From: Thermogemmata fonticola
Lineage (GTDB): Bacteria > Planctomycetota > Planctomycetia > Gemmatales > Gemmataceae
NCBI RefSeq assembly: GCF_013694095.1
Contig: NZ_JACEFB010000006.1
Location: forward strand, 186,001 to 250,000
Direction: 5' to 3'
DNA length: 64,000 nt
This document shows, in pieces, positions 14,912-53,648 of the stretch; the first letter of the stretch is position 1, and every line of letters starts with the position of its first letter. The notes under the pieces were generated by a model. The model made no database searches, was not told the origin of the DNA, and saw only the letters and a list, made by a program, of their open reading frames with translations. Made by a program: the position numbers and the translations under genes.

Positions 14912-15757
14912 TTATCCAAACAGCTCTTTCATTTCGGACGGAGTAGGACGACAATCTGTCCCAATGATGCGGCGGGCACGCATCACAACATCTTTGGGAC
15001 TTGCACCGTCATTAATAGCTATTACAGCCTCAGATAATGCCCGATAGAATAAAAGTTCCTGTTCGCCTAACGCTTCCATTCGAGCACCAACTGGAGCAAA
15101 GAATCCATATGCCATCAGTATTCCCAAAAAAGTTCCAACTAGCGCAGCACCAACTTTGTACCCAATGGTTTCGACAGGGCCACCGATTGCCTGCATGGTG
15201 ACGACAATACCTAAAACCGCAGCCACTATGCCAAAACCGGGTAATGAATCTGCTGTACGTAACATAGCCATGACCGCAGCATGATGCTCGCGCTCAAGAA
15301 CGAGAATTTCTTCCTCAAGCCACTTACGCAGCTGCTCCGATTCAACTGTACCATCGATAATCAATGACAAAGAATCACATAGAAAATGTCGTATATGATG
15401 GTTATTATAAATTTTCGGATATTGCTGCAAAACTTCGCTTTGCTCAGGATTAGTCACGTGAGAATCAAGGGCTAATAAACCATTTTGTCGCACCAAACGT
15501 GCGAACGCATACATGACCTGTAACATCTGAATACAGGTAGATTTACCGTATGATGATCCTTTAAGTACCTGTAAAAATCCGCGAATAAGATCCTTCATTA
15601 CCTTAGGAGGGGACATTATGATAAGCGCACCAAACGCTGCTCCGCCGATAGTAATAAATTCTGATATGTGTATAAGGGCACCAATTTTTCCCCCCGCCAT
15701 CGTGAATCCTACCACCACTGCGGAGAGAACGATAATTCCACCTACGATAACGACCAC
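14912..15757 (-). CDS. motA: Flagellar motor stator protein MotA
   Basis: The frame gives 281 residues, the normal length, with four predicted membrane helices. Family landmarks: GGKIGALIHISEFITIGGAA near the N terminus, the cytoplasmic loop with NPEQSEVLQQYPKI, the conserved proline/glycine segment DSLPGFGIVAAVLGIVVTM and LVGTFLGILMAYGFFAPVG. The GTG start at 15757 has GAGG about 7 bases upstream. It heads the motA-motB pair. A sigma-28-like element (GCAA-N15-TTCGATAA) lies 58-84 bases upstream. Base composition begins to fall in this gene going toward the AT-rich flagellar block. Confidence 0.96.
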   Translation of the reverse strand: MVVIVGGIIVLSAVVVGFTMAGGKIGALIHISEFITIGGAAFGALIIMSPPKVMKDLIRGFLQVLKGSSYGKSTCIQMLQVMYAFARLVRQNGLLALDSHVTNPEQSEVLQQYPKIYNNHHIRHFLCDSLSLIIDGTVESEQLRKWLEEEILVLEREHHAAVMAMLRTADSLPGFGIVAAVLGIVVTMQAIGGPVETIGYKVGAALVGTFLGILMAYGFFAPVGARMEALGEQELLFYRALSEAVIAINDGASPKDVVMRARRIIGTDCRPTPSEMKELFG

Positions 15758-15814
15758 GACTAGCCTCGGATGAAAACCGATGTAAACAGCCCAGGGAGCT
15801 GCCTTCCTAGTAGA

Positions 15815-15841
15815 TTATCGAAGCTAACGTCGGCAAGTTGC
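15815..15841 (-). promoter_or_regulatory. Sigma-28-like promoter of motA-motB
   Basis: On the minus strand GCAA (15841-15838), 15 bases, TTCGATAA (15822-15815). The -10 part matches the sigma-28 consensus GCCGATAA at 6 of 8 positions, and the same element with the same spacing precedes flagellin. The -35 part lies within a small palindrome GGCAAGTTGCC (15832-15842), which could be an operator. Confidence 0.5.
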
Positions 15842-15891
15842 CAGAGAGTCTATAAAAGGACAAGTCTAGTAAAAGTTGTTGGGCCAATGCT

Positions 15892-16716
15892 ATGTATAGG
15901 AATATAGTAATATACTGCCGCACGCCATTTGTGCTTTATTTGATTAGTATACTTGTGGTATTTTTTTATCACGAATCAGGTGATGAGAATAATCCAATTA
16001 AGCAGCTTATTAAAATAGTCGACGATCCAAGTCAACCCTTAGATACGAGGATCGAGGCTGCATACCTTATTGGAAAATTAGGAGTATCAGCGAAGGAAGC
16101 TATTCCACACTTAATCACTGTGCTGAGACGACTTCAGGGCAGAGAATTAGAACCACTGCAAATTGCAATTATCGATTCATTGGCCCAAATGGGATATACC
16201 GCACGTATCGCGCTCCCAGCACTAACAATGGCAAGTGGCAGAAGCATAGATATAGATCTAGCGATCAAGCGCGCAACAAAAGCCATACTGAGTACAACAG
16301 ATGAGCACGATGTAACATCACTTGTTAAACAGCTAGGATCAAGCGATCCGAGTCAGCGACTTCGTGCCGTTGACGCTTTAAGGCGGTTAGGTGATGAAGC
16401 AAAAGAGGCATCGTCTGCATTGATGGAGTTACTAGACGATGCAGACTACACGGTCAGAAATGCCGCAATAGAAGCTTTGCTGACCATTTCAAGAGATAGA
16501 AAAATACCCGATGCGATAATTCGCGCGATTGCTAAGGACTTGAATGAGTCTGATCCATTGCGAAGATTGCTGGCCCTATACCGTCTTGGTAAAATTGGCA
16601 GTCCATCTGCTATAGTAGCCGATGAAGTGGACAAGTTAAGAAATGATACTGATACGAATGTACGACGAGTTGCCCAAGAAATACTGAATAAAATATTAAA
16701 TACAGAAAAAAAGTGA
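15892..16716 (+). CDS. Membrane-anchored HEAT-repeat protein
   Basis: The frame gives 274 residues. The N terminus has a hydrophobic segment (VLYLISILVVFF, about 14-25) likely to act as a signal anchor. The rest is tandem helical pairs of the HEAT type, for example DTRIEAAYLIGKLGVSAKEA, SQRLRAVDALRRLGDEAKEA and YTVRNAAIEALLTI. HEAT arrays are protein-binding scaffolds and give no reaction. It is divergent from motA and its stop abuts flgL convergently, so it interrupts a run of flagellar genes. It is AT-rich like its flagellar neighbours to the right. No clear ribosome site precedes the ATG. TATAAA at 15852-15857 may be part of its promoter. Confidence 0.8.
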   Translation: MYRNIVIYCRTPFVLYLISILVVFFYHESGDENNPIKQLIKIVDDPSQPLDTRIEAAYLIGKLGVSAKEAIPHLITVLRRLQGRELEPLQIAIIDSLAQMGYTARIALPALTMASGRSIDIDLAIKRATKAILSTTDEHDVTSLVKQLGSSDPSQRLRAVDALRRLGDEAKEASSALMELLDDADYTVRNAAIEALLTISRDRKIPDAIIRAIAKDLNESDPLRRLLALYRLGKIGSPSAIVADEVDKLRNDTDTNVRRVAQEILNKILNTEKK

Positions 16717-16717
16717 A

Positions 16718-17641
16718 TTAAGTAATGTAATCAAGAAAAGAAAAGTTATAATATCGTGCTATTATAGCCATACTTGCCTGTAATAAATATTGAGATTGAT
16801 TCATTCTGACTATAGCATCAGCATAATCCGTACTCTGCAATTCAGATTGCATGACCTGATGGTCGTATAAAAGTTTATCTAACTGCTCAGAATAACTACG
16901 CAATCCAGATAAATGAGAGGAAATACTTCCGATGACACCAGTAATATGATCGCGAGCTAATTCGATGTCTTGCATGGCTGAGCCTAATAGAGACGACCGT
17001 TGGGGTAAGTCAGCTAATAATGCATTACGTAAATCTATTAAGGATTGGAATATATTTTTACCATTGTTTTGTAGGAATACATTACCTGTATAGTAGAGAG
17101 GTATAATGATATCATCACTAATAAATGCATTACTATTATTAGTAGATCCCATATACGTGATGTTATTAATTCTACCATTTATATCGTAAGAACTAATAAC
17201 AAATGGAGTTATATTTAGAGCCGCCCCGGAAAATAAATAATTATCATACATTTTTCTATTGGAAATATTCAATATGTTGTTAATCATAACGTCTATTTCG
17301 TCTGCCAATGCCCGCATTGTAGATTGGTCCAATGTAGTATCGGAACCAGTTGAAGCGATTTGAGAAGCACGTAGTAATACATTATTTATATCAAGCAATG
17401 AATTTACTATATAATCGAGAGTATTATTCAGCGTATGAATATTATCGATCGTTGATGAAATGCGTTTGCTTTCTGTACTATGATATAATATCTTATTATA
17501 ATTATTAATATTTTCTGATGGCCTAGTTATATTAACACCAGATGATATGTCTCTATAATGTTGAGATAATGTATATGAATACCTTTGTATTTGCGATAAA
17601 ATTTGAGATGTAATATTTAGCTGTGTAGTTCGTAGATTCAT
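16718..17641 (-). CDS. flgL: Hook-filament junction protein FlgL
   Basis: FlgL (HAP3) joins hook to filament. The likely start is ATG 17641 (307 residues, MNLRTTQLNITSQI), matching the family opening and having a GGAG-like site; an in-frame start at 17662 overlaps the flgK stop. The flagellin-like N-terminal helix is visible (YSYTLSQHYRDISSGVNITRPSE) and the C terminus has the matching helix (DYADAIVRMNQSQYLLQASM). Codon use is extreme: AT-ending codons, ATA for Ile and many Asn, far from the GC-rich genes outside the block. It is convergent with the HEAT gene with almost no gap. Confidence 0.9.
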   Translation of the reverse strand: MNLRTTQLNITSQILSQIQRYSYTLSQHYRDISSGVNITRPSENINNYNKILYHSTESKRISSTIDNIHTLNNTLDYIVNSLLDINNVLLRASQIASTGSDTTLDQSTMRALADEIDVMINNILNISNRKMYDNYLFSGAALNITPFVISSYDINGRINNITYMGSTNNSNAFISDDIIIPLYYTGNVFLQNNGKNIFQSLIDLRNALLADLPQRSSLLGSAMQDIELARDHITGVIGSISSHLSGLRSYSEQLDKLLYDHQVMQSELQSTDYADAIVRMNQSQYLLQASMAIIARYYNFSFLDYIT

Positions 17642-17658
17642 ACCACCACTCCACATTA

Positions 17659-19272
17659 TCAAAACATATTAAGTAAGGTATCAATTGTTTGGTTAACAAT
17701 TGATATATATTTAGACGATGATTCTAGCATTTTTTGAAATTTTAAAAGATTAATGAATTCTTCGTTCGTATCAACACCTATGATTTCACTTAATTTGGTA
17801 TACGTATCATTGTAAATTTCTTTTGAATAATTTTTGCTATTTGTTACAGTTGTACCAAAGTTTCCTATATCCGTTATAATTTTCGACATACGCTGAATAA
17901 AATTGTTTTGAGTAAATAATGAAGATTTAAATACATCTAACAAACGAATTATATTATCATTATTACCGATCTCACCAGTTTTAGAGAATGCAAATAAGTT
18001 TGGATTATCAATGAACTGCTGTCGAAGACTTATTGTATCTGCATTATAACCATCAAATATGCCGTTTATACCTAGCGCAGAGAGTAGACCTGAAGTATCA
18101 GGATTTGTAACAGAAGTGTTAGTCGCTGGTATTGTATCCCTTCCTGCAAAGTCGAATTTATACCCAGGTAACGCACTTATGCTAATTAATCCTGTTGAAG
18201 TGTTGACAGATGCAGATATGCCAGGAAGTGAAGATAAAAAATTACTAATATCATATAGGCTATGTATATTAGGATTGATATGAAATGTATAATTATTTCT
18301 TGTCGATGAATTTATATCAGTAATGCTAATAGTTATATCGCCCTCGAAAATTTCTAGCGGTAAATCTTGAGTGGCTAGCGGCGCAAAGACATCTGGAACG
18401 GCGATACGAGAGTCTACACTTTCGTATTCTCCAGCAATACCTAACCCTGTTGCCTGTATTTGATTTATATTCCTAATAAAATCAGAAACAAGATAATTAA
18501 TTTCGTTTTTTATTTTTGGTATATATTGATTGTACATATAAATCAAAGATCCAAGTCTTCCAGAATCAACATCTATAGTTCCTATATCATTAATAAGATT
18601 AATATTGTTATTATTATACTGTATTTTCAGGTGATATACTGTATTATCTAAAATCAATGGCAAACCGTTATCTGAAAGAATGTTAATACCTTTATTAGTT
18701 TGTACTAAATTTGTATTCATAATATTGGATAAATGTTCTAAAATTTGATCTCTATTATCCAATAAATTATGATCCAGTCTAGTTAAATTTGTTAAGTAAT
18801 TGTTTATTTGTTCTACATACGACGTTATTTGGTGTTCAATGTTAATTTTTAAGGTATCTAAGGCATCGCTAGTGCTCCGGATAGACATCACTAGATCGTG
18901 CATGTTAGATATAAGATCATTAATCCTATATCTACTTCCAGTTAACTGTGATAGTACATTATATATATCATTAAATTTTGCCACATAATCTCCAATTGTT
19001 AAATATGATTCTAATAATGAATAATAATTGTATAATTCATCGTAAAATGAAAAGTCGCTTAAATTATTATAATATAGTTTTTGTAAAATATCTTCAGTTT
19101 CTCTATGTGTATAGCTATAAATCACGCCGTTGTCGTTAGGTAAAGTTGAGAGCCTTGCCGTTTTTCTATGGTATTGTGGCATATCAGACTTAGTAATATT
19201 TTGACCAATTACATACGTTGATTCATTAGCTACAGTAATGCCAGAAAGACCAATCAGTAAGTGATCAAACAT
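17659..19272 (-). CDS. flgK: Hook-filament junction protein FlgK
   Basis: FlgK (HAP1) sits between the hook and FlgL. The frame gives 537 residues, in the normal range. The N terminus carries the hook-associated motif (FDHLLIGLSGITVANESTYV, IGQNITKSDMPQYHRK) and a long helical region with 'NQIQATGLG', typical of FlgK. The C terminus has EEFINLLKFQKMLESSSKYI and 'IVNQTIDTLLNMF', the family's closing helix. It is very AT-rich and Asn/Ile/Tyr-rich. It lies 26 bases downstream of flgI and its stop overlaps a possible flgL start. Confidence 0.94.
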   Translation of the reverse strand: MFDHLLIGLSGITVANESTYVIGQNITKSDMPQYHRKTARLSTLPNDNGVIYSYTHRETEDILQKLYYNNLSDFSFYDELYNYYSLLESYLTIGDYVAKFNDIYNVLSQLTGSRYRINDLISNMHDLVMSIRSTSDALDTLKINIEHQITSYVEQINNYLTNLTRLDHNLLDNRDQILEHLSNIMNTNLVQTNKGINILSDNGLPLILDNTVYHLKIQYNNNNINLINDIGTIDVDSGRLGSLIYMYNQYIPKIKNEINYLVSDFIRNINQIQATGLGIAGEYESVDSRIAVPDVFAPLATQDLPLEIFEGDITISITDINSSTRNNYTFHINPNIHSLYDISNFLSSLPGISASVNTSTGLISISALPGYKFDFAGRDTIPATNTSVTNPDTSGLLSALGINGIFDGYNADTISLRQQFIDNPNLFAFSKTGEIGNNDNIIRLLDVFKSSLFTQNNFIQRMSKIITDIGNFGTTVTNSKNYSKEIYNDTYTKLSEIIGVDTNEEFINLLKFQKMLESSSKYISIVNQTIDTLLNMF

Positions 19273-19298
19273 ATTTCACTCGTAGTAACAATTATTAG

Positions 19299-20402
19299 TT
19301 ACATAACGATGATTTCGGCATGCAGTGCGCCTGCCTGCTTTAACGCTTGAAATATAGCTATTATATCTCTTGGTGATACACCTAAAGCATTAAGTGCACG
19401 AGCTACATCACCTACGGTTGTTGTGGGCGGTAGGGCGACGAACCGAGCTTGCTGCTCCACAGCACCTATTTGCGTACGCGGTACTATTGCAGTTTGACCT
19501 GTGGCAAAACTAGTCGGCTGGGATATAATGGGGCGTTCGCTAATCCCAAGATACAAGTTCCCATGCGATATAGCAACAGGCGATATAGTTACATGCTCGC
19601 CTGCAACTACTGTTCCAGTTCTTTCATTGATTACTACCTTTGCCGCATTATCAGGTGATATAGTGAGTTGCCCAATCTCAGCAATAAAGTTTATCGGCTC
19701 GTTTAACCTGTTCCGAGGAATAAAGATTGTAACAGCTCCAGCATCAATTGGTATCGAACACGCAGGGTATTTTTTATTGATTACATTACATATATTTCTT
19801 GCAGTGTTAAAATCCGGCGTCTTTAGCAGTAATGTAAGCTTCCCGTGCTTAATAATGTCCCCTAGTGCCTCCTTTTCTACTATACCACCTGCAGGTATTC
19901 GTCCGACGTTTAAGTGGTTCTTCTGAACGGAAGCTGCCTGTCCCGCGATTGAGAATCCTCCTACGGATACTGGACCTTGAGCAATGGCATATACTTCACC
20001 ATCCACACCTCGCAATGGTGTAAGTATTAGGATTCCACCTTGTAAACTACGAGTGTCATCTATGGCAGATACAGTAACATCGATCCTACTTCCTTTACGT
20101 GAATATGGACTTAGTTCAGCAGTTACCATAACAGCCGATATACTAGTAGATCTAATGACCGATTCTGCTGGCAGTTGGCTGAATATTTGCGTGGTTGTTC
20201 CGAGACGCTGTAGCATTTCTACGGCAACTTGCTGCGTGAATGTGCTCCTGCTTCCAGTTCCATCTAATCCTACTACAAGCCCAAAGCCAAATAACTGATT
20301 TGGGTGGGCACCAGCGACGTCAGTAATATCTTTTACTCGCACCTGAGCATAGATTATATCTGGACTAATAAAAGCAATAAATAAAGCGGCAATCATTCTC
20401 AT
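19299..20402 (-). CDS. flgI: Flagellar P-ring protein FlgI
   Basis: FlgI forms the periplasmic bushing around the rod. The frame gives 367 residues with signal peptide (MIAALFIAFISPDIIYAQ) and canonical start of the mature protein (VRVKDITDVAGAHPNQLFGF, then GLVVGLDGTGS). Further family landmarks: TPLRGVDGEVYAIAQGPVSV, VVNERTGTVVAGEHVTISPV and, at the end, TVGDVARALNALGVSPRDII. The usual length is about 365. It sits 6 bases after flgH. Its composition is less AT-rich than flgH, flgA or flgK, as expected for the most conserved gene of the block. Confidence 0.97.
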   Translation of the reverse strand: MRMIAALFIAFISPDIIYAQVRVKDITDVAGAHPNQLFGFGLVVGLDGTGSRSTFTQQVAVEMLQRLGTTTQIFSQLPAESVIRSTSISAVMVTAELSPYSRKGSRIDVTVSAIDDTRSLQGGILILTPLRGVDGEVYAIAQGPVSVGGFSIAGQAASVQKNHLNVGRIPAGGIVEKEALGDIIKHGKLTLLLKTPDFNTARNICNVINKKYPACSIPIDAGAVTIFIPRNRLNEPINFIAEIGQLTISPDNAAKVVINERTGTVVAGEHVTISPVAISHGNLYLGISERPIISQPTSFATGQTAIVPRTQIGAVEQQARFVALPPTTTVGDVARALNALGVSPRDIIAIFQALKQAGALHAEIIVM

Positions 20403-20408
20403 GATAAA

Positions 20409-20990
20409 TCACCAAGGCCAAATTTGATAAAATATTCTATTGAAGTAGTTAGGATTATTTGATCTGGATATTATACCACGACCTAAATAATATATTCGTA
20501 GATTAGCAATTTTATCAGTAGTTATAGTATTTCCTACACGGATATCAGCAGGCCTTATTATACCTGTTATATATATAATTCGTTCTTCACCTGCTATTAT
20601 TCTGCGCTTATATCCCTCTATCACTAAATTATTATTGGGTAATATATCAATTATGACAGCAGTTAATCTATCAGTGAACGTATGATTAGTAGTATTAGCA
20701 GCATTGCCATTAAACGCATATCTATTATCAGTTGTCAATAATTGTGCAGGATTGTTAGTATTGCCAAACGTCAACCCAGCATTTGCGCTACTATTCTTTC
20801 CTAACTCGCGCTTGTCTTGTTCTTGAAGGATGGTTATTTCATCAACAATAATTGTTATAAGATCGCCTATACGCCTAGCATTATTGTCTTGAAATAAATA
20901 TCCGTATCTGGGATTGTGTCTATCCCAAATTGAATCACAATTGCCAGATATTTTCGCAAACGCTAAAATAAATAATAGTGAATTAAACAT
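20409..20990 (-). CDS. flgH: Flagellar L-ring protein FlgH
   Basis: FlgH forms the outer-membrane ring. The frame gives 193 residues. The N terminus is hydrophobic (FNSLLFILAFAKI) followed by GNCDSIWDR; Cys near residue 18 may be lipidated, although the lipobox is not classical. Family motifs: RRIGDLITIIVDEIT, NTTNHTFTDRLTAVIIDILP, NNNLVIEGYKRRIIAGEERI and the ending GIIRPADIR...YLGRG. Presence of FlgH implies that the flagellum crosses an outer membrane. It lies between flgA and flgI, the usual order. Confidence 0.95.
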   Translation of the reverse strand: MFNSLLFILAFAKISGNCDSIWDRHNPRYGYLFQDNNARRIGDLITIIVDEITILQEQDKRELGKNSSANAGLTFGNTNNPAQLLTTDNRYAFNGNAANTTNHTFTDRLTAVIIDILPNNNLVIEGYKRRIIAGEERIIYITGIIRPADIRVGNTITTDKIANLRIYYLGRGIISRSNNPNYFNRIFYQIWPW

Positions 20991-20999
20991 ATTATTTAT

Positions 21000-21509
21000 T
21001 TACTCTATAATCGCATTATTTTCATCAATAAGTAATGCTGTTATAATTCTCGATGTATCGCCAATGCGTAGCTTTACCATCTCTCCTATCTTGCCCGCCT
21101 GAATTAATTCAGCCGTAGTTATTATCTCAATTCCATTTTTTTTGTAATATAACGTTACTTTTTTCCCAGGTAAAAATGTATATTTGTTAATATTAGAATC
21201 ACTTATATATTTAACTTCGACATAATCAGGTCCGAGAATATCATAATTGTAACGATTGTCATATAGCATTAGCCGCAGTAATATATGTTTCTTACTAATA
21301 ATTAGAGTATTCTGATTAGGCTTCAATTCAGCTATATCTATATTTTTGATATAATTATTTACAATTGTCACATCATAAAGATTTACAATTTTCTTTGATA
21401 TTGTTATATTTTTTTTTAGAATTAAAGTAATACTCTGTTTAGATACATACAAATAATCTACTGTATTTCCAATACATAATATTGATACTATAGTATATAT
21501 ATAATTCAT
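21000..21509 (-). CDS. flgA: P-ring assembly chaperone FlgA-like
   Basis: FlgA is a periplasmic chaperone needed to assemble FlgI. The frame gives 169 residues with a hydrophobic N terminus serving as signal (YIYTIVSILCIG). The middle is very divergent and full of Ile, Asn, Tyr and Lys; the C-terminal SAF-type segment is recognisable: LPGKKVTLYYKKNGIEI, AGKIGEMVKLRIGDTSRII. The start overlaps the flgG stop by 4 bases (ATGA). Bases 21361-21420 contain only 11 G/C in 60, among the lowest values I counted. Position between flgG and flgH strongly supports the call. Confidence 0.87.
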   Translation of the reverse strand: MNYIYTIVSILCIGNTVDYLYVSKQSITLILKKNITISKKIVNLYDVTIVNNYIKNIDIAELKPNQNTLIISKKHILLRLMLYDNRYNYDILGPDYVEVKYISDSNINKYTFLPGKKVTLYYKKNGIEIITTAELIQAGKIGEMVKLRIGDTSRIITALLIDENNAIIE

Positions 21510-22297
21510 CTTACTAATTCCGTTGTAGCGGCAAGCATATTATCAGCAGTGCGTATTGCACGTGTATTGAACTCGTATGCCCTTTGTGACGTAATCAGAT
21601 TAATTAATTCACTTACTACATCTACATTTGAACGCTCTAAGAAACCTTGTCGAGTGAAGCCTGTGCCGTTTTGTCCGGGTACTGATATTATCGGTGGCCC
21701 TGAGGCAGCTGTTTCGGCAAAAAGATTGCGCCCTTCGGCACTCAATCCTGCTGGGTTCTGGAATCGTACTAATGTGAGTTGACCAACTACCGTGGTCGTG
21801 TTGAGTGCCCCAGCATTTTGAACTGAAACGGTACCGTCCGAACCAATAGTGATTGAAACTGCTTGTGGAGGGATAGTAATTTGTGGTGAAACCAAAAAGC
21901 CATCACTTGTTACAAGGCTACCTTGTGCATTGATCCGGAAAGAGCCATCCCTGGTATAGCGGACCTCACCGTTGGGGAGGAGCACTTGAAAAAAACCTTC
22001 ACCTTCAATTGCTATATCTAAAGGATTTTGCGTATTAATTATAGCTCCGGGCGTAAATATCTTAGTAATTCCTGATACTCTAGTCCCACTACCAATCTGA
22101 ATTCCTATTGGTGATTGTAATCCTTGTGCTACAACGCCTCCAGGTGTCTGTTGGTTGTAATATAATAGATCCTGAAATGATACCTCGCCCTTTTTGTAAC
22201 CAGTCGTATTGACATTTGCCAAATTATGTGCGGTGTTATCTAAATTTGTTGTCTGTGCATTCATTCCGGTAGCACTAGTATATAATGCTCGAATCAT
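21506..22297 (-). CDS. flgG: Distal rod protein FlgG
   Basis: FlgG builds the distal rod. The frame gives 263 residues, the standard length. N terminus IRALYTSATGMNAQTTNLD and NTAHNLANVNTTGYKKGEVSFQDLLY are diagnostic; the segment IAIEGEGFFQVLLPNGEVRY-TRDGSF follows, and the C terminus has ERSNVDVVSELINLITSQRA and FNTRAIRTADNML. GAGG precedes the ATG. It follows flgF by 18 bases and overlaps flgA. It is moderately AT-rich, less than its neighbours, in line with its conservation. Confidence 0.97.
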   Translation of the reverse strand: MIRALYTSATGMNAQTTNLDNTAHNLANVNTTGYKKGEVSFQDLLYYNQQTPGGVVAQGLQSPIGIQIGSGTRVSGITKIFTPGAIINTQNPLDIAIEGEGFFQVLLPNGEVRYTRDGSFRINAQGSLVTSDGFLVSPQITIPPQAVSITIGSDGTVSVQNAGALNTTTVVGQLTLVRFQNPAGLSAEGRNLFAETAASGPPIISVPGQNGTGFTRQGFLERSNVDVVSELINLITSQRAYEFNTRAIRTADNMLAATTELVR

Positions 22298-22315
22298 ATT
22301 TTTTACCTCGGTATA

Positions 22316-23020
22316 TTATACCCTAGTGTTTAGTTGTATTATATCAGCAATTAAACGTAAGGCTTTTTGCGTAGCTTCATAATAGCGACTACCTAATATC
22401 ATTTTGACAAATATATCATTTATATTTATATTTGATGTTTCGAGATATCCTTGTAGTATTCGAGATTCTGTATCTTGGATACTTAACTCACTATCAGGTT
22501 TATATATGTTGGCACTTATCCTTTTAATTGAATTATTATTTATAGCTGTTACTATCCGTATCTTGTCGACTTCTTCTCCATCTGCGATTAGCGTACCATT
22601 ACTAGTTACAGAAATATTGCTGGCATCAGCGGATATACGGATTGGACCAGTGGCACCCAATAATAGGTAACCATTAGAATCTACTAATAAACCGTCAGGT
22701 GTACGCATAAAGTGACCATAGCGACTGACAACTTGTCCATTATTGCTAAGAAGTAAAAAATAACGATTCGGTTCTGCGATAGCTAAGTCTAATGATCTCC
22801 CGGTTTGTACAAATCCTCCTATTTCATTTCTATCCCAGATGATTCCCGTTTTTACACCGTTTAATTCACTTGCAGAAGCAGCACTATCTACTTCATTAAA
22901 TGTCATCTGGATCTCTTTAAAACTAGGAGTATTAATATTCGCTAAATTTATAGAAATGACATCCTGCTGTTCTGAGGCTGTTATCAAGCCAGATGTTGCG
23001 GAATAGATACCACTTATCAT
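22316..23020 (-). CDS. flgF: Proximal/distal rod protein FlgF
   Basis: FlgF is a rod component related to FlgG. The frame gives 234 residues from ATG 23020 (a GTG just before is in frame); AGGG lies about 9 bases upstream. Motifs: ISGIYSATSGLITASEQQD, ISINLANINTPSFKEI, DLAIAEPNRYFLLLSNNGQV and the C-terminal LETSNININDIFVKMILGSR. The GN-type 'GEGFF' of most family members reads EPNRYF here. It heads flgF-flgG-flgA-flgH-flgI. Upstream, TAAA and ACCGATAT near 23070-23098 resemble sigma-28 boxes, but spacing is off by two bases. Confidence 0.93.
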   Translation of the reverse strand: MISGIYSATSGLITASEQQDVISINLANINTPSFKEIQMTFNEVDSAASASELNGVKTGIIWDRNEIGGFVQTGRSLDLAIAEPNRYFLLLSNNGQVVSRYGHFMRTPDGLLVDSNGYLLLGATGPIRISADASNISVTSNGTLIADGEEVDKIRIVTAINNNSIKRISANIYKPDSELSIQDTESRILQGYLETSNININDIFVKMILGSRYYEATQKALRLIADIIQLNTRV

Positions 23021-23103
23021 CACTGTAATCCCTGCCTATATATCGCATATTACTATCGCCTTATATATCGGTATGACTAGTAGCAGATCTTTAGTATAAT
23101 CGA

Positions 23104-23514
23104 TTATGCCTCAAATTCTGTTGATTGAAATGCTTGGACATCTATATCTATATTATTATTTATACTATTTGCTTTCAATTTAGTGATTGATTCTCGTAAT
23201 ATCTGAATAGATCGAATTATTATATCAATTTGTTTAATGTCGCACATCTCTAATTTATTATTAATAATACTATAGATAAGCTTCAATCTATTAGACATTA
23301 TGTTATTAGTTGCTGTATTATTTAAAGTATATGCGAGTGTCATTATTATTAGGCGACATTTGATTATTTTTCCACGTGCAATCGTAGGATATTCTATATA
23401 TGTATTCTTTACTTCTTCCAATAAATTTTCTAGTTTATCGTAAGCTTCTAATGTGATGTCAATATAATTCCAATTGGTAAAATCAGACAGTGTTTGTTTA
23501 TAATATTGAAACAT
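23104..23514 (-). CDS. fliS: Probable flagellin export chaperone FliS
   Basis: FliS binds the flagellin C terminus in the cytoplasm until export. The frame gives 136 residues, the family's usual length, with four predicted helices and an opening of the right type (FQYYKQTLSDFTNW). Sequence similarity is faint because the gene is extremely AT-rich and Ile/Asn-rich; the call rests mainly on size, helical build and position directly after fliD (13 bases). AAGGA lies 8 bases before the ATG. Another small flagellar chaperone cannot be excluded. Confidence 0.72.
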   Translation of the reverse strand: MFQYYKQTLSDFTNWNYIDITLEAYDKLENLLEEVKNTYIEYPTIARGKIIKCRLIIMTLAYTLNNTATNNIMSNRLKLIYSIINNKLEMCDIKQIDIIIRSIQILRESITKLKANSINNNIDIDVQAFQSTEFEA

Positions 23515-23527
23515 ATATTATATTCCT

Positions 23528-25534
23528 TTACTTACGTGTAGTGTTCATCAGAGTTATAGGCATGAGAGCTACCAATTGACTTTGCAGGTTTTTGAGGCTA
23601 CTTACAGCGGATTCCATTGCAGCGAACTGTTTAATGAGTTCGTTTTTACGATTTTCTAATATAAGATTCTGTTTATCTATTTCTTTATTAATATTATCAA
23701 TTTGTATTTGGTAATTATCCTGTGTATCTTTTAACCTTCCATATGCTGGATTTAGATATTTGTCTAGTACTGAATTGAGTTTTGCTGATACTCCGATTGT
23801 GACAAATATGTTCCCGATAGTCGATGTAGGTGAGGTTGCCCTGACTTGCAATCCATCAGTATGTTGATTTCCATTCATTCCAGTTAGGATTTGTCCGCTT
23901 CCAGATGCAAGCTCTGATGTCCCATTGACCACAAAGTAACCTTCCACATCATCACCCCGGGCGGATTCACCACCAATGAATCCTAGATGCGGGAGGACTG
24001 TGCCTCCTTCCACACTTACATGTGACAATGATCCGTACTTTTGTGATGTTATTTGCAATTGATTGGAATTATTCAATACTACGTTTACATGATTATTATT
24101 ATTGTTTGGATGGGTATTAATGAGTCTTTGTAATAGTGCCGCCAGCTCTTCTGGTGTATATGTACCAGGTTCAACGATTATGTTCAGCAGTGCTACATTA
24201 TTCAATTTAATCACTAAGGTGTTATCTGGCGGTTGAATAGTTATAACTCCGCTCAGCGGATTCGATGCTGTGACACTCGCACGTGTTGCCGGTGAAGTGA
24301 CATGTACTTCGTATGCTGTTGTGGACAACTTTGTTTTATTGGTACCTTGGACGAATTCGATAGTAGGGTTTGTACTTTGTCCTGTGATTGCGAAAAGCTT
24401 TTTTATGTCGGCAATAACTTGGGTATTTCCCATTGATAATGCCTGTTCTAGCTTAGTTTGATCTAGATTTAGTTTATTATTATCAGTCAGTGCAATTCCT
24501 ATTTTACTTAATCTGTTGATTCCCGTGCTTGATGATTCGAGAGTCGTCATCAGCGTTGTAACTATATCGCTTACTAGATCCTGTATTTCGCGATTTCCGA
24601 GTAGTACACCGGCTTGTTGATTCTCTACGTTATATTTGCTTTGTTCATTAATATAATCCATTACCTTATTATATGTGTCTACAAAATCTTTAATTCCATC
24701 CTGGATTTTTTTTATATCTCTCGATATATCGATGTTAATTGGCTTTCCTGGTTCTGCCTTCAGTAGGTTGATTGTGACTCCGGGGATTACTGTTTCTATT
24801 TTGTTGTTAGAGCTTCGGATAGTGAGAGCACCCTCTCCGCTGCCAAGTCGGAGGATAGCGTCTGAGGCTTGCTGCAATGTATTTTCCTGAAAATTGATAT
24901 CCTCACCGTCACCATTTGTAAGGTTGCTTGTAATAGTAAAAGCACTACTTACGCCCGTGTTCTTTGCTGTAAGTATTATCTTGTATGGAAGATTTGATCC
25001 ATCATTGATAATTGATGCGCGCAGGTCCTGAGTCGCTGAGTTGATCGCCTGGACTACGCCTTGTAAAGTATTATTCGTAGAATCGACATTGATTGTTGTT
25101 GACTGTCCATTTCCAAATTGTATTGTAATAGTCCCTTGTTTGAGTTGTGTATTCGGGTCGTTGAACCCAGAAGAGGCGACCATATGCGCCTTGGCAATGC
25201 TCTCGACACTAACAATGTAGCTTCCTGGAGTGGCACTAGAACTAGCGGCAACAGTGAGGGTGTTCGGGTCACTTGAAGTGGCAGTTGTGGTATCGAAGAT
25301 GCTGCCGATGGAGCGAGCCAACAGGGAGGTTTTGCTTTGCAGATCGTAGAGGTATCCTTTCAGCGTGGCGATGGCCGATTGCTTGGCCATGACATCCGCC
25401 TGTCTTGCCTTCAGACGATCGATACGTTGCTGGTTGATGCGAGTCAGCCCTTCGATGAGTACATCCGTATTGATACCGGTTGCGAGGCCGCTGAAATTGA
25501 TGCCGTTTGTGTTAAGTCCTGTGATGGATGCCAC
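23528..25534 (-). CDS. fliD: Filament cap protein FliD
   Basis: FliD (HAP2) caps the filament and inserts flagellin. The frame gives 668 residues. N-terminal domain: FSGLATGINTDVLIEGLTRI, AIATLKGYLYDLQSKTSLLA; then SSATPGSYIVSVESIAKAHM; the C terminus is a long helical segment (IQIDNINKEIDKQNLILENR, MESAVSSLKNLQSQLVAL) as expected. Length is at the upper end of the family. Composition shifts within the gene: bases 25321-25380 (N-terminal codons) have 31 G/C in 60, whereas 24661-24720 have 15 in 60. It lies between flagellin and fliS on the same strand. Confidence 0.95.
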   Translation of the reverse strand: MASITGLNTNGINFSGLATGINTDVLIEGLTRINQQRIDRLKARQADVMAKQSAIATLKGYLYDLQSKTSLLARSIGSIFDTTTATSSDPNTLTVAASSSATPGSYIVSVESIAKAHMVASSGFNDPNTQLKQGTITIQFGNGQSTTINVDSTNNTLQGVVQAINSATQDLRASIINDGSNLPYKIILTAKNTGVSSAFTITSNLTNGDGEDINFQENTLQQASDAILRLGSGEGALTIRSSNNKIETVIPGVTINLLKAEPGKPINIDISRDIKKIQDGIKDFVDTYNKVMDYINEQSKYNVENQQAGVLLGNREIQDLVSDIVTTLMTTLESSSTGINRLSKIGIALTDNNKLNLDQTKLEQALSMGNTQVIADIKKLFAITGQSTNPTIEFVQGTNKTKLSTTAYEVHVTSPATRASVTASNPLSGVITIQPPDNTLVIKLNNVALLNIIVEPGTYTPEELAALLQRLINTHPNNNNNHVNVVLNNSNQLQITSQKYGSLSHVSVEGGTVLPHLGFIGGESARGDDVEGYFVVNGTSELASGSGQILTGMNGNQHTDGLQVRATSPTSTIGNIFVTIGVSAKLNSVLDKYLNPAYGRLKDTQDNYQIQIDNINKEIDKQNLILENRKNELIKQFAAMESAVSSLKNLQSQLVALMPITLMNTTRK

Positions 25535-49595: not shown

Positions 49596-51629
49596 TCATG
49601 ACGCACAGTCGCTATCCTCGCGGGAAGAAACCGCTCGTGGGGATGGCGTAGTAGGTAGTATTGTTGGTGTGGCGGGAATACCGCCCTTTCCCTCCACTTC
49701 CGCGGGTGAGGCCAAATAACGCAGGTCCCCTTCTCGCCGGGTCAGCCCGCAACGATCCAAGTACTCGCAGAGCGGAACAGCATATTTGCGAGTCGTACCG
49801 AGTAAGTCGCGAACTTCGGCGACGGTTATGCCGGTACCTTGTTGCAAGCGAGCTAGGATACGGCGCCGCATCTCAGCCTCCGCTTCCGCTGCTAGATATA
49901 ACTGGTCGTTGATGCGGACTAACAATCCCTCGGCCACAGCGACTTCGTAAATATCCTTGAGCGCGTGGGCATTCCCACCGGCCAAGGGGATGAATTCCTT
50001 CGGTTCCGGCGGCTGGAAGGGAGAGGCCTGATGAGCCGCCACGATACGATCCTTGAGTTTGCGCTGATTCGCACTCAGTTTCGGTTTGAACGCAGCGTGG
50101 GCTATGCGATGGGCATCTCCCACCAAAGTATGGGCAGCCAGCAGGCGGTCGATCAAAGTCTGAATTAGCTCAACATCCCCCAAGTAGCCGAGTTGTGCCA
50201 CAATTTTTTGCCGATCCAGGCTGGTCAAGAGCGGATACTGCTGGTGCATGCTCTGGACTAAGGTGAGGATACGTTCTTCTGCTTCCTTAAGCCGCCCAGC
50301 ATGCACAAGCAAAGGTTGATGGCGGGATGGTAAAGCGAGAGATATCAGAGTCCCGTCTTGTTGGAGTTGGGCGAGGCCTTGATGGGCTTCCGCTGGTGTG
50401 ACCCCCGCATCGCGAATAAAATCCGCCAATTCCGCCCCCTTCAGCCCGGCAAACCAGGCCACCGTGGCCATGCGCTCGTGGGGTGAGGATGATTCCAGCT
50501 TTTCCAACTGTTCAATGACTTCGACATGGCGGCGGCGAATTTTATGGGCCACCGGCTGGAGCACTCTTCCCCCGCCTAAAGTGTAGGTGGCCGAGACATC
50601 CCGTAGGACAAAGGGTTGACCCCACACACTGGTAATGGGCTGTTCCAGGAACACTTGCGCCAGCGCTTGTTCCCCCGCACGCACCGTGTCGGCATCCAAG
50701 AGCGCAAGCGTTCCCATCACCTCAGCAGTACCCGCATGGAAATGGACGGGAAGGCGGTGCCGCAAACCCCGCGGATGCAACGTCGCTGCTTCGACCCGGA
50801 CGCTCAGCACGCGGCTAGGGCGCAAATAGCCCGGTGTGAACAGTTCCTGACCTCGGCGGACCAGTTCATGGGGGACGCCCGCCAGGTTGATGCCAGCCCT
50901 CTGCCCGCGCTGCACTTCGCTCACCGCTCGGCCATGATTGGTCAGGCTCCGCACCCGAACGCGCTCCACCCTGCCATCGCCTTGATGCCACTCCAACTCC
51001 TCCCCCACACGTACACGTCCGGACGGCACAGAGCCTGTGACGACTGTCCCGTGACCCTGGACGACAAACGCCCGGTCGATGGGCATGCGGAACCACTGAT
51101 CCTGAGCGCGGATTTCTACCTGTTCGCAGAGGTGCAGCAAATGACGCTTAAGTTCTTCCAATCCTTCGCCCGTGGTGGCGGAAGTGGCGACAATCGGAGC
51201 GTCCGCCAGGAATGTGCCTTGGACCAGATCCCGGATTTCCATTTCCACCACCGAACGGGTCGTCGCATCTACCAGATCGACTTTCGTCATCGCAATCAAG
51301 CCGTGGCGTACACCGAGCAAGCGGAGGATAGCGAGATGTTCGCGGGTTTGAGGCATGACGGAATCATCAGCGGCCACAACCAGCAAAGCCAGATCGATGC
51401 CCGTGGCACCCGCGAGCATGTTCCGAATAAAGCGCTCATGACCGGGGACATCCACAATTCCCAGGTGGTAGTCGCCGAGTTCCAAGTGGGCAAAACCGAT
51501 ATCAATGGTGATGCCGCGAGCCTTCTCCTCAGGTAGGCGGTCGCAATCGATACCCGTTAGCGCCTTGATCAAAGTGGTTTTGCCATGATCGATATGCCCG
51601 GCTGTGCCCAGGATTACGTCGCGTGGCAT
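49596..51629 (-). CDS. selB: Selenocysteine-specific elongation factor SelB
   Basis: SelB delivers Sec-tRNA to UGA codons followed by a SECIS element. The start is set at ATG 51629 (677 residues, [20 protein letters not shown]); an earlier in-frame start lacks a ribosome site. GTPase motifs: GHIDHGKT (G1), [10 protein letters not shown] (G2), [13 protein letters not shown] (G3) and MTKVD (G4). Domains II-III follow ([20 protein letters not shown]), then C-terminal winged helices (about 420-660; for example [20 protein letters not shown]). The GITIDIGFA signature separates it from EF-Tu. No selA, selD or tRNA-Sec is nearby. Confidence 0.93.
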
Positions 51630-51695
51630 GGATTTTGTCCCTGTTGGTTCTGCCCGATCTTTCATTGTACTGGTAGGCTAATCGGGCCTGGAAGT

Positions 51696-53648
51696 TCAGC
51701 GATGCCAAATGGAGACAGTTCCTAGCTGAGGCAGGGTGATGGCGTGAACCTGGCGGAATCGATCCTGTTCAAGTAATGCCATCTTGATCGCCGAATTATC
51801 TCGCCCCTGAGGTGGAGGTTCGTAAAGCGGACTATGGGGAGGGATTTCGACATACACGATGATTTGAGAGGTGGTTGCTGCAAGCCAGCGTCGCGCGTCT
51901 GCCAGCGACACGGGATCGAAGCAGCCGATTTCCCGCAGATTGTGGCGCAAGCCGTTTTTGTGGCCGAAGCGCTCTAGAAACGGCCAGCGCCAGGAAGCCT
52001 CTGGAAGATTGCAAAGGATGGCGGTCTCTTCTTGACCGCTCAAATGGGACAGGTAGGCGTTGTACACCACCCGCAAGCTCTGGGAGGGATTACCGTAACC
52101 ACGTCCGAAGTCGGGCCGGACCTGCGGCGGCTCCAACATTCCTGCCAGTATACCCCCGATGATCAAGAGCACCGCCGCGGAAGCCAAAACGGTGTTTATA
52201 AACGGAGGAATTGTTCTGATGATGCCGTTCATCATGGTGGCAAAACCAATGCCAGACATCAGCCAAAACAGAGGAAACCAAGTATGAACAAATCTCATCT
52301 GCTCATTGGGATGTAATAGTGTTAGAATACATGATACAATAAACAATAAAGGTATAATCCATTTCCATAAATCATTATTGTTCCTGAGAATAAAATGTGC
52401 CATTCCGATAGCAGATAATATACAGCTAATAATTGCTATCCAGTGATGAATAAAGTAATTATTATAAATACCGTCGAAATAGTAATGGCACTTTTGCCAG
52501 AAAGTATGATGCAGGATGCCCGGATCGTTTCCCGGACCTGCGTACCACACGAAGAATTGCAAGCGGAAAGGGAGGGCTAACCAAAGCAGGGGGGGAATCG
52601 TGGCCCACTCCAAGAGCTTCCTTTGGGGGAGGCCGCATTGCTGTTCCACCGTGTACCGTCCCCGTGTGCTCCACCACATTCCCAAACGTATCAAACTTAG
52701 TATGTAGGCTGCTTGGATCAATAATCTTGGTCTTTGTATTCCTATCCGATGACCAAAAATGGTCATTGATATACCATTGCAATAGATAATGACTAGGCTG
52801 AGTATTAGCAGGACCAAAATCAGATAGTTAACTAAACTTTTCGATTGTCTTACTAGAAATTTTTCATCAATGATATAATTCAATATCTGCACAGTATATT
52901 GTAATACAATTTTTCTGTTGCGGATGGCTTCATGTATGCTGAGGGAAAAGACAACTAGTCCCCAGTAGTTGTACTTGTGCAGGAACAAAGCGGAGAGCGA
53001 AGCTCCCAGCCAACAAGCGTGCTTGGACGTCGGATGTTGGACCCATGCGGCATAAGCAACCGCCGCGGTCAAAGTGAGACCTAACCCGAGGCTTTCCAGC
53101 ATCACATCGGTGGCCATCACCCGCAGAGCCGGGCTGGTAAGGATCAAGCCAACAGTTACAAGTCCGCCGATCGATCCACTTGGCCCCCCCAATCGCCGGA
53201 CGAGCCAGAAAGCCAGCACGGCGGTCAACATCCAACCGCATAAACTCGGTAGGACAGCAGCTTCGGGAATCAGTCCCACAACCGTAAGAATCAGACCCAG
53301 TAGCAGGGGATGCAAAACGGGCCAAGCGACACTCGCTGCATCCAAATCGAGCAACGCCCTCCCGATGTGCCCTTGCCGCAATTCACACGCGATGCAAAGA
53401 GCAGCTTGATAATGAGCATTGCGATCATGGTAAATGCTGGACCAACGCAGATCCAGGTGAGACACATAATGGCGATGCGTTATCAGAGCGGCATAGGTCA
53501 CCAGAGCGAATAGTCCTATCCAGATCAGGAGCGTGCTTAGGTTACCCTTCGAGTGACGTCCCTCCACTAGCAGCGACAGGAGGCGGGAACGGATCCCGTG
53601 CCAGAACTTCAGGAAGGGATGGCGTACGGAAAGCGGTGTTGACGGCAT
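51696..53648 (-). CDS. Multi-pass membrane protein, probable glycosyltransferase of the GT-C type
   Basis: The frame gives 650 residues with roughly ten or more hydrophobic segments (for example [53 protein letters not shown]). After the first membrane segment there is an acidic/aromatic loop ([14 protein letters not shown]), the usual place of the catalytic Asp in GT-C lipid-linked sugar transferases; the assignment is on layout only. The C-terminal about 100 residues form a soluble domain. The gene is a composition mosaic: 14 G/C in 60 at 52321-52380, 36 at 52561-52620, 14 at 52861-52920, 36 at 53041-53100, with the frame intact throughout. Confidence 0.75.

Follow-up and report, generated by a model that had tools for sequence, protein, structure and literature searches.

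Why should base composition within a single intact gene swing between AT-rich and GC-rich over a few hundred bases? The question is raised by a 64,000-base stretch of the genome of Thermogemmata fonticola, a planctomycete of the family Gemmataceae (contig C6, positions 186001–250000; 4.81 Mb in 61 contigs), here called the window, in which a gene of 650 codons for a multi-helix membrane protein (51696–53648, minus strand) is strongly uneven in composition. A first-pass annotation had counted 14, 36, 14 and 36 G/C per 60 bases at positions 52321, 52561, 52861 and 53041, and we obtained exactly these values; the frame, which it had called intact, is open from end to end. It had attributed the alternation either to patchwork gene conversion or to a local mutation process, and had suggested the same cause for an AT-rich flagellar island in the window.

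Two-state segmentation placed two AT-rich segments in this gene, both on the minus strand: patch 1 (52186–52510, 34% GC) and patch 2 (52684–52989, 35% GC), separated by 173 GC-rich bases (52511–52683, minus strand; 61% GC, GC3 0.74). A two-patch model (log-likelihood −1304) is better than a single patch (−1324) by 20 log units and better than a uniform gene (−1354) by 49. Edge widths anywhere from 1 to 200 bp give almost the same likelihood, so the sharp tract edges reported earlier are not demonstrable. Scans of the gene with Rfam and for repeats revealed no known RNA and no repeat.

Sixteen other genomes of the family carry homologues of the gene; it matches no Pfam or NCBIfam entry at cut-off and no PDB sequence. 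A fold search with a structure model built from four sequences (mean pLDDT 65) placed AftA and ArnT on top (E about 5e-4), with TM-scores below 0.35. Because this weak model resembles these GT-C enzymes, the gene probably encodes a GT-C-type, sugar-transferase-like glycosyltransferase. It adjoins a gene for a SelB-like selenocysteine-specific elongation factor (window 49596–51665, minus strand), which suggests that selenocysteine may be used by this genome.

Ancestry and synonymous composition of the patches

We aligned the gene with homologues from the sister species, which belongs to the same genus (56% identity), and from nine more distant genomes (about 30%), and compared trees of its five regions. 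T. fonticola and its sister were joined in every one, with SH-aLRT support of 99 for the N-terminal part, 90 for patch 2, 99 for the middle, 98 for patch 1 and 100 for the C-terminal part; these trees test donors beyond the sister, and an AT-rich donor closer to T. fonticola than the sister would fall outside the sampled relatives. A search of the T. fonticola genome for a second or donor copy returned a single match, the gene itself. Judged by these trees, the gene does not combine several ancestries and is vertical relative to all sampled relatives. The proposed check for separate ancestry of each patch therefore speaks against conversion from a divergent donor, as every part groups with the sister.

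At the protein level the two patches differ. Identity between T. fonticola and its sister drops to 0.37–0.41 in both, the lowest of the gene. In the patch 1 tree, the T. fonticola branch measures 1.08 versus 0.32 for the sister, and sites conserved in the other homologues are broken 16 times in T. fonticola versus 3 times in the sister (p = 0.004), an acceleration of amino-acid change in the T. fonticola lineage. The same count in patch 2 is equal between the lineages (6 versus 7), with no such acceleration. Conservation among the other homologues is 0.32 in patch 1 versus 0.24 in the C-terminal part.

The first-pass annotation had allowed that the patches might follow only hydrophobic-residue constraints, with no shift at synonymous sites. 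GC3 is 0.37 in patch 1 (sister, 0.73) and 0.40 in patch 2 (sister, 0.67), versus 0.62 outside; in the sister and nine other homologues it lies near 0.67–0.73 at the patch positions, and the patches are absent from the distant homologues. For residues common to T. fonticola and its sister, GC3 is 0.31 in patch 1, 0.50 in patch 2 and 0.57 in the rest. On conserved residues the synonymous shift is thus clear in patch 1 and weak in patch 2, where it falls mostly at changed residues. When only synonymous third positions are scored, the gene is 8th among 683 T. fonticola genes (z = −5.4), and no shuffled gene falls below −5. Inside the patches, 0.18–0.24 of isoleucine codons end in C, versus 0.68 elsewhere in the gene. 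Mean hydropathy of patches 1 and 2 is 0.58 and 0.76 in T. fonticola and 0.67 and 0.59 in the sister, and hydrophobicity fails to explain the patches.

Fourfold-degenerate sites have A/C/G/T frequencies of.32/.26/.14/.28 in the patches and.15/.30/.33/.22 elsewhere in the gene. A and T rise alike, a shift without strand bias, and strand-coordinated deamination was dropped on this ground. Synonymous sites between T. fonticola and its sister are near saturation, so the patches cannot be dated.

Similar patches across the genome

We surveyed the genome for similar patches, as the annotation had advised. In 1.23 Mb of the T. fonticola genome, taken as stretches, two-state segmentation found 51 AT segments (median 307 bp, 3.4% of bases), 18 of them strictly within one open reading frame; codon-shuffled copies of an 820-kb stretch of contig C1 contained none. 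Synonymous positions were surveyed separately, a gene being counted as patchy if a 60-codon window fell short of the median of the same gene by 0.25 or more and, as a filter against frame artefacts, codon positions 1 and 2 were not GC-richer inside the patch. The filter cut the patchy T. fonticola genes from 33 to 20 of 683, compared with 4/229 in the sister, 4/94 in the high-GC relative G032, 0/128 in genome G002 and 0/142 in Escherichia coli K-12 (T. fonticola versus the last two, Fisher p = 0.002). Shuffled genes passed in 0.1% of cases. An apparent 21–28% of patchy genes in G032 was rejected as largely wrong starts and spurious reading frames. The membrane-protein gene is the sixth deepest of the patchy T. 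fonticola genes, some of which are of known mosaic type or erroneous (RHS genes; an N-terminal extension of ribD). Overall, patches span 0.2–10 kb and occur in unrelated genes without a visible common feature. Across windows within genes, conservation correlates with GC3 at r = 0.16 in T. fonticola and 0.23 in the sister, conserved windows being slightly higher.

An AT shift of the T. fonticola lineage is also present in conserved, vertically inherited genes, several of them essential: nuoD, nuoE, nuoF, alaS, larC, a pepT-like M20 peptidase gene and a PMT gene. In the peptidase, 40 codons have a GC3 of 0.15, where the sister has 0.68 and the same-family genome G016 has 0.70; the adjoining windows are at 0.53 and 0.68. 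About 1.2 kb of alaS lies at GC3 0.17–0.47, versus 0.45–0.74 in the sister and G016. nuoD, which is 84% identical to G016, carries two patches with 88–100% identity to the sister, and a tree of the patch columns alone joins T. fonticola with the sister (SH-aLRT 91) and then with G016, as in the remainder of the gene. In the patches of five genes, identity is 0.75 between T. fonticola and its sister versus 0.68 between the sister and G016.

The direction of change was examined in 30-codon windows of alaS, larC, the M20 peptidase, the PMT gene, nuoD and ribD, with G016 as the outgroup; these genes were picked for having patches in T. fonticola, so the result informs on the nature of patches and not on their frequency. 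To class a window as patch, we used solely the third positions of codons encoding an identical residue in all three species, and the changed residues under test therefore played no part in the classing. In patch windows, lineage-unique changes that lose GC at codon positions 1 and 2 number 32 in T. fonticola versus 7 in the sister (p = 7e-5), whereas neutral and GC-gaining changes number 18 versus 24 (p = 0.44); other thresholds agree. Relaxed selection, general hypermutation and a distant donor do not fit these genes, as each would raise neutral changes too. Because the neutral class is not raised, the AT-ward pull without raised overall change in the tested genes fits a local shift of bias. 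Had the donor been closer to T. fonticola than the sister is, the neutral class would stay flat, and the same question would then move to that donor. FlgI alone points in the same direction with too few changes (17/11/6 versus 9/10/5).

The flagellar island (15340–25153, minus strand; 36% GC) holds vertical-looking genes with GC3 of 0.20–0.38. Its GC3 falls gradually from the left and ends abruptly on the right. FlgI and FlgG are 65% and 80% identical to those of G016, and FlgI GC3 is 0.32 versus 0.68 there. No match to FlgI or FlgG was found in the sister genome (94% complete), so the sister has either lost them or has a gap in its assembly there. The annotation had likened the patches to this island in codon use. 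The likeness holds in direction, but the actual fourfold composition differs: in fliD of the island it is.49/.16/.14/.21 for A/C/G/T, with A well above the.32 of the patches. Because the island is vertical and AT-shifted, the common cause that had been suggested is plausible, as a matter of consistency only. A further GC3 valley with gradual flanks is formed by a lipopolysaccharide cluster (hldE, waaF and two WaaP/Kdo-kinase-like genes) at about 743–750 kb of contig C1 (743974–750352). Its flanks are gradual in the sister too, where the valley is deeper (L124/L125, G001:C87); waaF of G016, the nearest sampled outgroup, has a GC3 of 0.76.

Possible causes of the AT-ward drift

The patches are vertical relative to the sampled relatives, directed towards A/T, specific to the lineage and free of GC-neutral excess, and one of the annotation's options, a local process that shifts the gene towards A/T in situ, is thereby supported. 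Beyond this, we infer which force fails and why at these places. The membrane-protein gene was inherited vertically and is intact, and in this lineage the substitution balance has tipped towards A/T in two segments, each some 300 bp long, affecting synonymous sites and tolerant amino-acid sites. The force that holds the genome near 59% GC has probably long been missing at the patches, leaving the usual AT-biased mutation unopposed. Our first choice for that force, at slightly better than an even chance, is recombination-linked GC-biased gene conversion, which we favour over locally biased mutation. In most of the bacterial species tested, genes with more recombination have a higher GC3 (PMC4450053), and the GC difference expected of such conversion, at synonymous sites of vertical genes, is found here. 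Against the conversion reading, patch 2 has little shift on conserved residues and no acceleration in the T. fonticola lineage; nor does this reading explain an escape of alaS or nuoD from conversion at the scale of a few hundred bases.

Mutation or repair could instead be locally at fault, if the patch DNA, through a bound protein, melting or R-loops, raised GC-to-AT mutation or blocked repair. The patches are local and lineage-specific, and the shared AT direction of synonymous and amino-acid changes, with GC-neutral changes flat, suits a changed mutation spectrum equally. Still, the strand asymmetry expected from single-strand deamination is absent, the membrane-protein gene offers neither a repeat nor a known RNA, and the size range and diversity of the patches give no hint of a shared property of the DNA; we regard this explanation as possible but rather unlikely. 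Import or homologous conversion from an AT-rich relative, which would leave tracts of foreign ancestry, draws on the tract-like lengths of the patches, on the low protein identity to the sister within them and on the AT-rich segments of RHS and hsdS genes in the same genome. The pairing with the sister in both patch trees and in the nuoD patch columns runs counter to it, as do the identities in the five genes, the unraised GC-neutral changes and the lack of a second copy, and we consider it quite improbable.

Least probable, and in our view very unlikely, is ordinary protein constraint, by which weakly conserved hydrophobic stretches take AT-rich residues and codons. Identity to the sister is indeed lowest in the patches, conserved windows are slightly GC-richer at third positions, and the synonymous shift of patch 2 is weak on conserved residues. 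However, the sister protein is equally hydrophobic there yet keeps a high GC3, the choice of isoleucine codons changes inside the patches, and patches also occur in the highly conserved nuoD and M20 peptidase. For patch 1, whose conservation among other homologues is not below that of the C-terminal part, this reading is already contradicted.

Whether GC-biased gene conversion, or a local equivalent, operates in bacteria is disputed (PMC4450053 versus PMC8153448). The GC variation linked to recombination in PMC4450053 is likewise strongest at synonymous positions and in vertical core genes, but it lies between whole genes and recombination was measured, whereas here it lies within genes, at 0.1–1.2 kb, and is read from sequence alone. 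The downward GC drift of PMC8153448 is likewise a net AT-ward change in shared genes, although as a whole-genome average; here the change is confined to patches with GC-rich neighbouring bases. In the open-licence literature that we searched, we found no description of such within-gene AT patches in bacteria.

AT drift without replacement by foreign DNA from sampled relatives suggests that the GC upkeep of this genome can break down locally, at a scale of a few hundred bases. As the patches and GC-rich flanks of one gene have expression, function and chromosome position in common, the patches could act as internal controls that tell mutation, selection and conversion apart. AT-richness alone is no proof of horizontal transfer: composition would flag alaS, nuoDEF and the flagellar genes, all of which look vertical. 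A broader speculation, which we think distinctly unlikely as a whole, is that GC maintenance in the genus varies over 100–1200 bases within single genes, including essential ones, and that drifted patches diverge or bind proteins, excluding repair or recombination, so that they endure and may expand to valleys of kilobase size, the lipopolysaccharide and flagellar islands being examples.

RHS tips and HsdS target-recognition domains are AT-rich variable domains of mosaic genes and arise from domain exchange. They likewise set AT-rich segments within GC-rich frames, and such genes are present in this genome; in contrast to these, the patches described here have one ancestry with their flanks and also occur in alaS and nuoD. 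In an RHS-repeat cluster on contig C1 (34803–52687), the 3′ parts and small neighbouring reading frames are AT-rich (GC3 0.26–0.43 beside 0.74–0.81). An HsdS-like type I specificity gene on the same contig (211191–212666) has halves that look like an exact internal duplication, each carrying an identical AT-rich target-recognition segment of 192 bp.
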